Under the pieces are notes generated by a model, which saw only the letters and a program-made list of their open reading frames with translations, was not told the DNA's origin and did no database searches. The translations under genes and the position numbers were made by a program. From NCBI RefSeq assembly GCF_009617585.1, contig NZ_WIXI01000045.1, forward strand, positions 248,001 through 312,000: 64,000 bases of DNA. Reading direction: 5' to 3'. Positions 5,908 to 11,184 of the stretch are shown here, in pieces (the first letter of the stretch is position 1; each line of letters starts with the position of its first letter). Source of the stretch: Endobacterium cereale. Its GTDB lineage: Bacteria; Pseudomonadota; Alphaproteobacteria; Rhizobiales; Rhizobiaceae.

Positions 5908-6576
5908 ATGAAAAAAAGCACGCCGCCCGATTCTCCCAAACTGTTTGATGACCTGCCGCTGAGACCCGATTTCAGCATTGAGGACGCCGCACGCCGCGAA
6001 GGCCTGTGGCCGATTGCCGGTACAGACGAAGCCGGACGTGGCCCACTGGCCGGTCCGGTGGTGGCCGCTGCCGTCATTCTCGACCCTAACAATATTCCGG
6101 CCGGCCTGAACGATTCGAAAAAACTCAGCCTGAAACAGCGCGAAAAACTGTTCCAGGAGATCATCGAGACCGCTGAAGTGTCGATCGCCTCCTCCGGTCC
6201 CCGCCTGATCGACCAGCGCAATATCCTGCGCGCCAGTCTCGATGCCATGCGACGCGCTGTGGCGGGGCTCGTCACGCCCCCTGCCCTCGTCCTGTCGGAT
6301 GGTCGCGACGTCGTGCCCGGCATCACCTGCCACGGCCGTGCCGTCATCAAGGGGGATGCCCGCTCCGTCTCGATCGCCGCGGCCTCCATCGTCGCCAAGG
6401 TAACACGAGACCGTATGATGGTGCGTGCCGGCATCGTCTATCCCGTCTACGGCTTCGAGGGCCATGCGGGGTATGGAACGGCGCAGCACAGGGGGGCAAT
6501 CGAGGGCCATGGCCCGTGCGTGCTGCACCGGATGAGTTTTCGGCCGCTGAAGAAGGATGGGGTCGTGGTGGAGTGA
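5908..6576 (+). CDS. rnhB: Ribonuclease HII
   Basis: A 222-residue cytoplasmic endonuclease that cuts RNA in RNA/DNA hybrids and at single misincorporated ribonucleotides. The first catalytic segment [20 protein letters not shown] (Asp-Glu pair) is near residue 36, the substrate segment [16 protein letters not shown] near 70, and the Asp-bearing segment [11 protein letters not shown] near 128, followed by [19 protein letters not shown]. Length is normal with a short N-terminal extension. In rhizobia rnhB is, from memory, close to the atp F0 operon; here two orphan genes (6681-8188) separate them. Confidence 0.95.
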
Positions 6577-6680
6577 CCACGCGACGGCACGACAGCGCGT
6601 CAAGACCAGCGCTGACTACCCACGACTGTAAAACTCCTCTTAAACTCATTCCCATACACCCGCGATGACATCCCGGCGTA

Positions 6681-7313
6681 ATGGAACGAAAAATGCGCGA
6701 TAAACTGTCTTCCGCACTTCGCGCATCGGCCAAGGGCAGCGGGTGGACGGCAAGACGTGATCTATTGACCAGACGGGTCGACAATTCGGTTCTGGCTATA
6801 CATCCGCGCAGAGGCGCGCCCGATATCTTCGAGTTCCGAGCCAAGCCATTGGCATGGGACGATCTTCTCTGGTCGACCCTCCAGATTGACGGCAATGAGA
6901 AACTGCCTGCCAGTTTTCGGTTCACCGGCGCATTCACATGCGACACACCGGCTCTCGACCATATGGATTTTGTCAGAACCAGCTCTCCCGAAGCGCTCGC
7001 GTCCCAGATGCTTTCGTTTGCCCGGAACTGCCATGGAAAGCCTGCCCTGTGGAAGGATTATGATCTGAACGATGTGATAGCCGCCGAACCTCGGCATGAG
7101 CCTTATCGCTATCATCAGACATGCGTGCTTGACCGCATTTGCGCAGGAGGCCGTCAAGCTGCGCAGATGATTTGTAGTGATGTGCTCGCCGGCGCCTTGG
7201 ATTGCAGGATCACCTTGAGCGCCATCGACAAACAGATGCCATTGGATGCGACAGGAAGAAGGCCGTCGCTGAACTTCTTCGAGCTTGCAAAGATCTGGCT
7301 GAGCCGCAATTGA
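6681..7313 (+). CDS. Orphan protein of unknown function
   Basis: A 210-residue open frame that I do not recognise. It has no signal peptide or membrane segment, a basic N-terminus (MERKMRDKLSSALRASAKG) and scattered aromatic and cysteine residues (CHGKPALWKDYD near 115, CVLDRICAGGRQAAQMIC near 148). An alternative start at 6693 is equally plausible; no strong ribosome site decides. Codon use is more mixed and more AT-rich than in the neighbouring rnhB and atp genes, which fits acquired DNA. It lies 104 bases after rnhB and converges on the membrane-protein gene at 7400. It may be a lineage-restricted gene. Confidence 0.5.
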   Translation: MERKMRDKLSSALRASAKGSGWTARRDLLTRRVDNSVLAIHPRRGAPDIFEFRAKPLAWDDLLWSTLQIDGNEKLPASFRFTGAFTCDTPALDHMDFVRTSSPEALASQMLSFARNCHGKPALWKDYDLNDVIAAEPRHEPYRYHQTCVLDRICAGGRQAAQMICSDVLAGALDCRITLSAIDKQMPLDATGRRPSLNFFELAKIWLSRN

Positions 7314-7344
7314 CGAGCGACACGCCGGCCTGTCACGCCAACCA

Positions 7345-7413
7345 AACAAATAGGTCGGTGTTACCACCCGGCTTTATGAAATTCATCCTGACACGTCGAT
7401 CAGTTCAAACGCG
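7345..7413. repeat. Decayed copy of the atpF 3' end and terminator (repeat copy A)
   Basis: About 65 bases here align with 8226-8293, with shared runs such as accacccggcttt, aaatt and tcgatcagttca. In both copies the minus strand reads codons ...R-L-N then TGA, followed by the hairpin region. The hairpin stem here (GTCGGTG / CACCCGG) is broken, whereas copy B is perfect, so this looks like the decaying duplicate. Confidence 0.7.
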
Positions 7414-8188
7414 ACCTGAAATCCGCTTGCGGTTCGCATGCGACCCAGTCCCTCTTGCGTTCCACAAAACGTTGTCTGCGTATCGACCAACGCGCCCAAG
7501 TTTCTATGCGACCGTCGCGGGAAAACGCGAGATATGGCCTGTCGTACTTCGACAGCGAAAAGAAGCCGAGATCGGCGGACGTCGCCTGCCGCTTTGGCCA
7601 TATCGGGATACTGATGCACCATGGCCGTCCCTGCGCCAGTTTTTCTGCCTCTTCCAGAATACGAAAAGACTGCCCGGAGCCTACGAATGAAATTACCGTC
7701 AGCACCGACAAGGCGGCGCCAAGAGGAATGCCGACGGCAAGATGGCGTCTTGCGATATAAAAAACACTCGCGGCGGATAACCCCGCTGCCAACCCCACGC
7801 CCAGATCAAGCGCACGGCCGCCGCCGCTTCCGCCAAGAACGTCAGCCAGGCAGATCGTCAGCACGACACCGCCGATCGCACCAACAAAAATCAGAAGGGG
7901 AACATCCAGCCAGGCCGTTTTTTCACCGATGAGCGCATCCACGTTCAGCCAGCCGAAATAGGCCGCGATGCCGAGCCGGACGGTGAAAACGACACCGAAA
8001 AAGCCCGCCACGGGCAACAGTTCCAAGGCCTCAGCAACTTCAGGCACAGGCGCCTGCATCAGCCGGAACGCCACCAGTGCGAGAAGCGACAGGCCGGCCG
8101 TTCGCCACATGAAACGCAACGGCAGGAATGGGCTGACCACAGCCAGAACCAGAAATGAAACAAGGAAAAACATGATGAGTTCAGACAT
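7400..8188 (-). CDS. Multi-pass membrane protein of unknown function
   Basis: A 262-residue protein. ATG 8188 is preferred; the upstream TTG at 8230 falls in the U-tract of the atp terminator. About six hydrophobic helices fill the first 180 residues (for example ELIMFFLVSFLVLAVVSPFL, TAGLSLLALVAFRLM, VGAIGGVVLTICLADVLGG). The remaining cytoplasmic tail is polar and aromatic (FFSLSKYDRPYLAFSRDGR near 205). The last residues, RSRLN, mirror the AtpF ending TRLN because this 3' end lies in a duplicated segment of atpF. No family is recognised. Starting 43 bases after the atp terminator, it may depend on read-through from the atp operon or on its own weak promoter. Confidence 0.6.
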   Translation of the reverse strand: MSELIMFFLVSFLVLAVVSPFLPLRFMWRTAGLSLLALVAFRLMQAPVPEVAEALELLPVAGFFGVVFTVRLGIAAYFGWLNVDALIGEKTAWLDVPLLIFVGAIGGVVLTICLADVLGGSGGGRALDLGVGLAAGLSAASVFYIARRHLAVGIPLGAALSVLTVISFVGSGQSFRILEEAEKLAQGRPWCISIPIWPKRQATSADLGFFSLSKYDRPYLAFSRDGRIETWARWSIRRQRFVERKRDWVACEPQADFRSRLN

Positions 8189-8230
8189 AAGCCAGACTGA
8201 AATGGATTTTTTCCGAAGCCAAACCAACAA

Positions 8231-8258
8231 AAAAGCCGGGTGTCACCACCCGGCTTTT
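8231..8258 (-). terminator. Rho-independent terminator of the atp F0 operon (repeat copy B)
   Basis: A perfect 12-bp stem, AAAAGCCGGGTG / CACCCGGCTTTT, with a 4-base loop (tcac), sits 23 bases after the atpF stop on the minus strand and runs into a T-rich tract. The surrounding segment (about 8226-8293) is repeated in decayed form at 7345-7413. Confidence 0.9.
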
Positions 8259-8281
8259 CAAATTTCAATCTGACCGATCGA

Positions 8282-8767
8282 TCAGTTCAGGCGCGTCTTC
8301 ACCTGGGCAACGGCGTCGGAAAACAGCGCGTTGCGGGTGGCTGCGTCGGCCTTCGCGGCGATCACCTTTTCGGCAGCAGCGACAGCCAGATCGACGGCAG
8401 CTGCGCGGACGGAACCGATCGCGTCGGCTTCGGCCTGCTTGATCTTCTGTTCCGAAAGCGCGTTGCGGCGCGCAACGAATTCTTCCGTCTTCTGCTTTGC
8501 CTCGGCGGTCAGCGCAGCGGCTTCGCGTTCGGCAGCTGCCACGATGTTTGCGGCGTCTTCTTCGGCTTCCTTGCGCTTCTTCTGGTATTCAGCGAGCAGC
8601 GCCTGGGCTTCTTCACGAAGACGCTTGGCTTCGTCCAGTTCGGAGCGGATGTTGTCGGCGCGCTTGTCGAGCGAGCGGCCCATCATGCCCGGAACCTTAA
8701 GATAGGCAACGAGCGCGAGGAAAAGGATCAGGCCGACGAGAGCATAAAATGTTGCATCAAAAGCCAT
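8282..8767 (-). CDS. atpF: ATP synthase F0 subunit b
   Basis: A 161-residue b subunit of the peripheral stalk of F1F0 ATP synthase. One membrane helix at residues about 5-25 (FYALVGLILFLALVAYLKV) is followed by a long, highly charged helix rich in Glu, Lys, Arg and Ala (about 35-145), typical of the right-handed coiled-coil stator. It begins three bases after the b' gene stop. Photosynthetic bacteria and alphaproteobacteria carry two b-type subunits forming a heterodimer; this is the second of the pair. The operon terminator follows at 8231-8258. Confidence 0.93.
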   Translation of the reverse strand: MAFDATFYALVGLILFLALVAYLKVPGMMGRSLDKRADNIRSELDEAKRLREEAQALLAEYQKKRKEAEEDAANIVAAAEREAAALTAEAKQKTEEFVARRNALSEQKIKQAEADAIGSVRAAAVDLAVAAAEKVIAAKADAATRNALFSDAVAQVKTRLN

Positions 8768-8770
8768 GGA

Positions 8771-9394
8771 TCAGGCTCCCTGCTTGGCGGCAGCGACCGC
8801 GGTCTTGATCTCGGCGTCGGTGGCTTTGCCACCGATCAGCTGATCGACGATGGCGGAAGCGGTTTCCGAAGCGATGTCGCCAACGTTTGCGAAAGCCTTT
8901 GCCTTGATCTCGCCAATGCTGGCTTCGGCGGCTTTCAGCTTTTCAGCCAGTTCAGCCTCGATAGCGGCGCGATCGTTCGCTGCCTTGGTCTTGGCAGCTT
9001 CGCGGGCGGCGTCGGCAATGCCGGCACCCTTGGCGCGTGCTGCTGCCAGTTCCTTTTCGTAGGTCTCGACGGCTGCATCGGCTTCGGCCTGCAAACGGTT
9101 TGCCTCGGAAAGGTCGGCGGCGATGCGGTCATGGCGATCCGACAGGATGCCTGCCAGACGGGGGCCGAGAACCTTCTGGATCAGAAGGAAAAATACGCCG
9201 AAAGTGATGACGAGCCACAGAAGCTGCGAAGCAAAATGGGCGCTGTCAAAGGGCGGGAATACGCCGCCAGCATGGGCGCCATCATGAGCAACACCCGTTT
9301 CGGTATGCACTTCGCCCGCGGGAGCGGCGCCCGGTGCAACCGGCGTCTGTGTGGCGTCCGGCGCGGTCTGCGCATGTGCCGGTGTCACGAGCAT
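8771..9394 (-). CDS. atpG: ATP synthase F0 subunit b'
   Basis: A 207-residue b' subunit, partner of AtpF in the stator stalk. An N-terminal Ala/Pro/His-rich segment precedes the membrane helix (about residues 58-78, [20 protein letters not shown]) and a long charged helix ([20 protein letters not shown]). Three start codons sit in a row (GTG 9400, ATG 9397, ATG 9394); the GGAG at 9401-9404 gives normal spacing only to ATG 9394. The N-terminal extension before the helix is usual for rhizobial b'. The symbol atpG is used for b' in some genomes and atpF2 or atpX in others. Confidence 0.9.
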
Positions 9395-9482
9395 CATCAC
9401 CTCCAGGTGGAATTCGAATATCGAAGATGGCGGCCACCCTCAAAGGGGCCGCCGCCATCCGTATGCAATCAATCGCCGCGAA

Positions 9483-9710
9483 TTAAACTGCGAAAAGCAG
9501 CAGAAGCGCGATGAGCAGCGAGAAGATGCCCAGAGCTTCCGTAACGGCGAAGCCGAATACCAGACGGCCGAACTGGCTGTCAGCGGCAGACGGGTTGCGC
9601 AGGGCGCCAGACAGGTAGCTGCCGAAGATGTTGCCGAGGCCGAGGGCCGTGCCGGCCATACCAAAGCAAGCGAGACCTGCGCCGATGAACTTTGCTGCTT
9701 CCGCTTCCAT
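9483..9710 (-). CDS. atpE: ATP synthase F0 subunit c
   Basis: A 75-residue proteolipid forming the proton-turning ring. It has two membrane helices around a polar loop (RNPSAADS near residue 39); the proton-binding carboxylate is the Glu of AVTEALGIF near residue 59, and the first helix carries the small-residue face [20 protein letters not shown]. Length is typical. The gap to atpB (9711-9779) carries a good ribosome site (AAGGAGATCATC) before the start. Such leaders help produce many c subunits per complex. Confidence 0.95.
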
Positions 9711-9779
9711 GATGATCTCCTTAGAATGGGTGTTGCGGCTGATGACTGACGCCTTCAGGACGCCAATGGGTAGTTATCC

Positions 9780-10532
9780 TTAGTGCCCGCCGGGGTGAAC
9801 TGCGTCATTGAGGTACATGCAAGTCAGTACCGCGAAGACGTAGGCCTGGAGGAAGGCAACGAGGAATTCGAGACCGGTGATAGCAACGGTCATGATGAGG
9901 GGCAGAATCGCGCCGCCGATACCGATCGGGCCGAGAGCCGCGAGCGAGACGATGAAGCCTGCGAAAACCTTGAGCGTGATGTGACCTGCGAGCATGTTCG
10001 CGAAAAGACGAACGGAGAGCGAGATCGGACGCGACAGGAAGGAAATGATTTCGATCATGACAACCAGCGGCAGAAGAATGCCCGGAATGCCCGACGGCAC
10101 GAACACTTTCAGGAAGTGGAAACCGTGCTTGTAGAAGCCGTAACCAACGACCGTGCCGATAACGAGAACGGCGAGCGCGAAGGTGACGATGATCTGGCTG
10201 GTGATCGTGTAGAAATACGGGAACAGGCCCAGCAGGTTCGCGGTCAGAACGAACATGAACAGCGAAAAGACCAGCGGGAAGAACTTCATGCCGTGGCTGC
10301 CGGCGCCTTCGCGCAGCATGTTGGCGATGAATTCATAAGACATTTCGGCAACCGACTGCGCACGGCCCGGAATCAGGCTCTTGGAAGCGGATGCGAAATA
10401 CAGGAAGCCGGTGGCGACCGCGACGGTAGCAACCATGAACAGCGATGCATTGGTGAACGACAGGTCAACGCCGCCGATCTCGATCGGAACGATCTTGGAG
10501 ATCTGGAACTGATGGATCGGATCGTTTGCCAC
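9780..10532 (-). CDS. atpB: ATP synthase F0 subunit a
   Basis: A 250-residue membrane subunit forming the two proton half-channels against the c ring. GTG 10532 is chosen: AGAGGG lies about 9 bases upstream and the product begins ANDPIHQFQ, the usual rhizobial start; a longer frame to 10589 has no support. The essential Arg lies in the helix [14 protein letters not shown] near residue 170, with the partner residues of the last helix in [17 protein letters not shown]. About six helices are visible. It follows atpI by 72 bases in the operon atpI-atpB-atpE-b'-b. Confidence 0.95.
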
Positions 10533-10604
10533 CGCTTGCCCTCTTCCTTCGCCGCGAATATCGCGCTTTGTATTCTCTTGTATAACCAAACGGCTTTTCG
10601 CCGA

Positions 10605-10964
10605 TCAGTCCTTGTTCGCTTCATCCTTTTCGGAAAACGGCGACGGCGCCACCATTCCGACAGAACGAAGTACGTTCAGTACACCGGCACAGAAACCAAG
10701 AAGGAGCAGGATAATCAGCCCCCACGGCTTCGACGCCGGCCAAACCAGTCCAAGGACGTAGCCCAGCATAGCGCCAACCGCGATCGCAGCTATGAATTCG
10801 GAGGATATTTTCAGTCCGAGGGCCATGCCTTTGCGGCTCGCCTCCGACTGCTCTTCCCTCGCCACCCCTGCCGCGTCGTCCGTACGTTTTCCCGCAAGTT
10901 CCGCGGTCAAACGCTTTCGGCGCTGCTCCAGACCTTCGTCCCGGTCATCCGTCATTCGCGTCAT
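10605..10964 (-). CDS. atpI: ATP synthase subunit I (AtpI)
   Basis: A 119-residue accessory membrane protein. A charged N-terminal half (QRRKRLTAELAGKRTDD) is followed by two membrane helices (FIAAIAVGAMLGYVLGLVW near residue 57 and GLIILLLLGFCAGVLNVLRS near 80). AtpI helps c-ring assembly or Mg2+ supply in some bacteria and is not a stable part of the enzyme. ATG 10955 is an alternative start. It is the first gene of the F0 operon; the F1 genes are not in the window, the normal split arrangement in alphaproteobacteria. Confidence 0.85.
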   Translation of the reverse strand: MTRMTDDRDEGLEQRRKRLTAELAGKRTDDAAGVAREEQSEASRKGMALGLKISSEFIAAIAVGAMLGYVLGLVWPASKPWGLIILLLLGFCAGVLNVLRSVGMVAPSPFSEKDEANKD

Positions 10965-11184
10965 CCTCTCCCCATCTCATCCCGGCAAGCCGGTCCAGAG
11001 ATGCCTGGGCCCGAGGAAATCGCGCCTTCCGGCCCGTTTTGAAGTCGCCGCAACATAGTTTTGCCCGCCCTTATAGTCAAGGCGTTGCAGGCGCTTCATC
11101 CAGTACAAATTAACCGATGAAAAACATGAACTTAGGTGTTTTCGGGAGAGTCCGCGCCAAACTGGCGGGAAAATCGACGACCGC

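Follow-up and report, generated by a model that had tools for sequence, protein, structure and literature searches.

Minimal mobile elements of Neisseria are variable whole-gene cassettes that lie between two conserved genes and bring no mobility gene of their own; their criterion, in the available excerpts of PMC3898611, is that homologous recombination in the flanks is the only way of incorporation. Integrase-less hotspots of gene transfer between core genes have also been described (PMC5635113, as excerpted), and for the T6SS immunity arrays of Vibrio cholerae, homology-facilitated illegitimate recombination has been proposed as the origin of the stacked immunity genes (PMC5361080, likewise in excerpt). 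The abstract of PMC3240628 reports this type of recombination from competent bacteria of three species and, as an infrequent event, from conjugation in E. coli.

The gap between atpF and rnhB that we describe here, in a 64,000-nucleotide stretch of DNA from Endobacterium cereale (the window) and in related genomes, resembles the excerpted description of minimal mobile elements in its position between two conserved genes (80/80 named loci; 56/57 genus genomes), in holding different whole-gene cassettes across genomes, and in a cargo without a mobility gene (40 cargo ORFs). It differs from them in that species and not strains are compared, with homologous exchange deduced, and in that additional flanking-gene ends persist in several of the slots. 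Compared with the hotspots as excerpted from PMC5635113, it is one small slot of up to ~2 kb. With the V. cholerae arrays, as far as the excerpts of PMC5361080 describe them, it shares the addition of a new module, the retention of parts of the old allele and the presence of truncated parts; however, what is retained here are the ends of the housekeeping genes on either side, and nothing points to an immunity function. A genomic island that an integrase had placed at a gene end would have an integrase gene and near-identical attachment repeats; in the window, Pfam shows no integrase, and the repeats are 77% identical. A literature search on atpF and rnhB in rhizobia returned no relevant paper, and the locus seems undescribed in the literature searched; the kind of event is already known.

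The two flanking genes are adjacent and convergent in 80/80 named loci, with a gap of 75 to 2258 bp. In the window, the slot is bordered on one side by rnhB (ribonuclease HII; 5908..6576, plus strand; Pfam RNase_HII, E 3.8e-38) and on the other by atpF (F0 subunit b; 8282..8767, minus strand; Pfam ATP-synt_B, E 2.8e-22), which is present in 57/57 genus genomes. Because rnhB is convergent with atpF in the relatives as well, no operon has been split, contrary to an earlier note on this DNA, which had rnhB separated from the atp operon. The nearest named loci by AtpF are those of isolate AFS080716 (94%; G074), Neorhizobium sp. JUb45 (93%; G013) and N. huautlense (86%; G033), and the organism was accordingly taken as a Neorhizobium. 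The slot was surveyed in 56/57 genus genomes (G021, with atpF near a contig end, was left out): the gap is ≤220 bp in 21/56, so that relatives with a short junction, which the earlier note had proposed to look for, do exist; it is 221-500 bp in 5/56 and >500 bp in 30/56. Genus slots of at least 300 bp hold 42 cargo ORFs in 29 clusters, called mechanically and some of them probably spurious. The 40 cargo ORFs outside the window match families such as GST (6 members), HAD, GNAT, nucleotidyltransferase, EutQ-like cupin and DUFs in Pfam; in all, they match 24 Pfam and 8 PHROG families, none of which is a recombinase, and Pfam finds none in the two cargo genes of the window either. On comparison of these sequences, the gap is a slot that holds different small gene cassettes in Neorhizobium and relatives. 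A cargo family of ~100-120 aa occurs in the slots of four genus genomes (L158, L168, L143 and L054, in the last as DNA similarity) and adjoins the scars that are described below for G025 and G035.

The window carries the 3' end of atpF twice, both times on the minus strand, as the earlier note had claimed. Copy B (8218..8295) is the functional end of the gene with its terminator, and copy A (7337..7413) matches it with 77% identity over 78 columns (E 3.0e-9 in a search against the whole genome, which is ~99% complete; E 1.9e-13 in a search within the slot only). The ungapped alignment covers 63 nt at 75% identity, with a spacing of 882. That the likeness is due to chance between two unrelated terminators is hardly credible: a core, AAGCCGGG...CCCGGCTT, is indeed common to other terminators after atpF in the genus, but the similarity also takes in the end of the coding sequence, the stop codon and the spacer, and the alignment that the earlier note had called for reaches a local score of 43, against 16 for the best of 2000 dinucleotide shuffles. 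There is also no comparable third copy in the ~99% complete genome, where the next match is a 19-base stretch (E 0.23).

The two terminators are in very different condition, and here, too, the first description of them was accurate. The hairpin of copy B (8231..8258) has a perfect 12-bp stem, a 4-nt loop and a T run on both strands; on the minus strand, a stretch of 51 nt has a folding energy of -23.4 kcal/mol (z -5.0), and the corresponding stretch of copy A one of -6.7 kcal/mol (z +0.97), so that the hairpin of copy A (7350..7376, minus strand) has decayed. When the whole genomes of the genus (57) were searched with copy A, the listed matches with E < 0.01 were, itself aside, atpF 3' ends; foremost among them were that of G074, a sister species (84% over 51 bp, E 3.5e-9), and the window's own copy B (77%, E 3.7e-9). 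Among the matches listed, copy A is about as distant from its own copy B as from the atpF end of any other genome. Judged from these matches, copy A is an extra atpF 3' end with stop codon and decayed terminator. Downstream of terminators A and B the similarity ends within a few bases, and the sequences differ. Rfam gave nothing in 6300-8900. A 16-base exact match to tRNA-Asp(gtc) lies at 7324-7339, with paired matches in nearly all genus genomes listed; it is probably due to chance, because its E value is about 0.5 per genome.

Between the two copies lies a gene for a membrane protein (7400..8188, minus strand, ATG at 8188; 262 aa), which ends inside copy A: its stop codon (7400-7402) is the TGA of copy A and the counterpart of the AtpF stop. 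The suggestion that its last residues are borrowed from AtpF holds for approximately the last 3-7 residues and not beyond. Homologues occur in 3/56 other genus genomes at 39-43% identity, and only one of them, in Neorhizobium sp. JUb45 (G013), is located at the atpF-rnhB junction. The JUb45 gene encodes 435 aa, ~170 residues more than the window version, and has no copy A at the junction; its C-terminal domain is also present in a 381-aa homologue (G067; 26% over 111 aa, E 7e-12) and has only a chance-level match in the window (E 0.71). The resemblance of the window protein to its relatives continues as far as a conserved Cys (residue 251), beyond which the reading frame enters copy A. With the longer gene and no copy A in JUb45, the membrane gene was most likely cut by copy A, rather than both having arrived as the single, target-copying insertion that had been envisaged before. 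The earlier note had held that the same gene with an unrelated 3' end in a close relative would speak against a duplication; JUb45 has such a gene, but the homology between copy A and atpF stands all the same. Against cutting, two homologues elsewhere are short as well: one in G031 has 279 aa, and a distant one in G188 stops soon after the conserved Cys, so that a short form of this protein need not be a broken one. The G031 homologue may itself have been cut; read by eye, the sequence downstream of it (L038, around 4790) lacks the C-terminal domain in any frame.

Window and JUb45 are 93% identical in AtpF and 90% in RnhB, and 39% in the membrane protein. The membrane gene is thus far more divergent than its neighbours, and the two copies may represent separate acquisitions. 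The protein has no usable family in Pfam, NCBIfam, PADLOC or PHROGs, and patterns back-translated from it recovered no relatives in genome contigs. An AlphaFold model, built from two sequences, was too poor to be used (mean pLDDT 42.1) and was set aside.

The second cargo gene of the window (6681..7313, plus strand; 210 aa) is without a known family: its protein matches nothing in Pfam, NCBIfam or PADLOC, and nothing beyond weak matches in PHROGs, where the two cargo genes together gave two weak matches of unknown function (E 0.009 and 0.023). Neither cargo protein has a tblastn match in plasmids. Among the 57 genus genomes, the 6681-7313 gene is present in one, its own; among 394 family genomes (own included), its protein has a weak relative in G328, with 34% identity over residues 3-133.

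These features could be explained by a site-specific integration at the atpF 3' end, in which a mobile element duplicated its target in the manner of genomic islands that insert at gene ends, and copies A and B are attachment repeats, and direct repeats of a gene end do flank a gene of limited distribution here. We nevertheless consider this very improbable. Neither the slot of the window nor the Pfam matches of the 40 cargo ORFs include an integrase or transposase, the repeats are only 77% identical, the slot of JUb45 has cargo without such a repeat, the second novel gene sits outside the repeats, and the scars in other genomes include ends of rnhB. Of the two origins first offered for the repeat, tandem duplication or target-copying insertion, the former is a rival of lower probability and the latter lacks support.

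We favour, with a probability of about 0.6, the reading that two slot alleles are stacked end to end in the window and that copy A is their scar. Exchange of slot alleles would proceed through recombination in the conserved flanks, with no integrase encoded by the alleles themselves. Allele 1 would comprise atpF, its terminator (copy B) and the membrane gene, now cut short; allele 2 would comprise a second atpF 3' end with terminator (copy A), the 6681-7313 gene, which we read as its cargo, and rnhB. Incoming DNA with allele 2 would have formed a homologous join on the rnhB side, and its atpF end would have been joined illegitimately inside the membrane gene, by homology-facilitated illegitimate recombination. 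The scar would then have supplied the last few codons and the stop of the shortened membrane gene, and the redundant terminator of copy A would have decayed afterwards. A single join event would in this way account for the cut gene, the extra atpF end on the same strand and the new gene together. The join between copy A and the membrane gene is non-homologous. A homologous join on the other side is not visible, because the rnhB of the window groups with its clade, that is, with close relatives (support 100/99); tree and identity give no sign of a distant donor for it. A replaced rnhB, which we had expected beforehand, was rejected, as identity over rnhB and splB shows none. It counts against stacking that a lone allele of atpF, the 6681-7313 gene and rnhB is found in none of the 57 genus and 394 family genomes, so that a source of the second allele was not found among them.

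Extra ends of the flanking genes are present in other slots, too. Slots were scanned beyond each atpF's own terminator with one profile for the end of atpF and one for that of rnhB; the scan took in slots >150 bp (40/56 in the genus; 111/136 in all, a total that counts some genomes twice). In the genus, 4/40 scanned genomes have such ends inside the slot: the window and three others (G008, G025 and G035). Extra atpF ends score 45 bits in G008, 31 bits in G035 and 25 bits in the window, and extra rnhB ends 93 bits in G025 and 38 bits in G035; the next-best real matches reach 4.3 and 3.6 bits, and ten shuffled slot sets ≤7.3 bits. All of the extra ends have the same orientation as the corresponding flank. 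Matches in L124 (17.3 and 12.1 bits) and L069 (6.7 bits), which lie right after the skipped 75 bases, were taken as own terminators.

The clearest scar is that of G025, in which alleles are stacked. From extended positions 977-1478, through cargo into ~120 nt of rnhB, its slot aligns continuously with G028 (81% over 512 bp) and G004 (72% over 503 bp); positions 1530-2187, with other cargo that leads into the present rnhB, align with G016 (66% over 661 bp). In G035, the order is cargo, rnhB end, atpF end, cargo, rnhB. That the window arose in the same way is our inference, as are the direction and the enzymatic mechanism of the transfer.

The alternative that has to be taken most seriously starts from an old tandem duplication at the locus itself, which would have doubled the atpF 3' end with its terminator and perhaps some of the slot. 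The copy would then have decayed, and the arrival of the 6681-7313 gene would be a later event; copy A could be explained in this way without a foreign allele. Copy A being no farther from copy B than from the atpF ends of other genomes is in its favour, and AU tests do not reject remnant and own end as sisters, either in the window (A+B, p-AU 0.41) or in G025 (0.35), G035 (0.44) and G008 (0.39). These trees rest on ~110-160 columns, and with p-AU values of 0.35 to 0.44 stacking and local duplication both remain compatible with them. In the alignments, the own end ranks only 8th (G025) and 22nd (G035) among the matches of the rnhB remnants, other genomes being closer; for the atpF remnants it ranks 1st in the window and in G008, and 4th in G035. 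The remnant of G008 thus resembles the atpF of its own genome most, and both copies there are followed by the same sequence rich in palindromes, so that this second atpF end looks more like a local duplication. In the window, on the other hand, the different sequence beyond A and B means that duplication alone is insufficient, and that gene loss and gain are needed too; whole alleles stacked in G025 and G035 are a further argument against it. In view of the closeness of A and B, the AU tests, the missing lone orphan allele and the lack of a distant rnhB donor, a plain old duplication keeps roughly a quarter of the odds. In a Rhizobiaceae MAG (L064, 4483-5190), the slot has a second atpF end that seems to have arisen by local tandem duplication, along with GC-rich palindromic elements that occur repeatedly.

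If stacking is correct, the scars would document in the sequence itself how cassettes accumulate between core genes in the absence of a mobile element: slot alleles would usually replace each other and sometimes stack, keeping the end of the adjacent housekeeping gene. A search for scars of this kind at further junctions of core genes could indicate how frequently incoming DNA is joined illegitimately. They would also be a warning for annotation: a gene with borrowed terminal codons may be the cut version of a longer one. By analogy, and as a doubtful extension, the ends of atpF and rnhB might serve as docking borders of an integrase-free cassette array, in which alleles are swapped and repeatedly added, each leaving a datable flank-end scar, and the housekeeping terminator would be comparable to the attachment site of an integron.

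A different kind of change is seen in N. huautlense (L071). Its atp operon is only 69-84% identical to the window (compared with positions 8500-11000); for splB/rnhB and the final part of atpF, the identity is mostly 82-94%. The operon looks as if it had been swapped for a divergent allele, and the mosaic identity along it is consistent with homologous recombination in the flanks.
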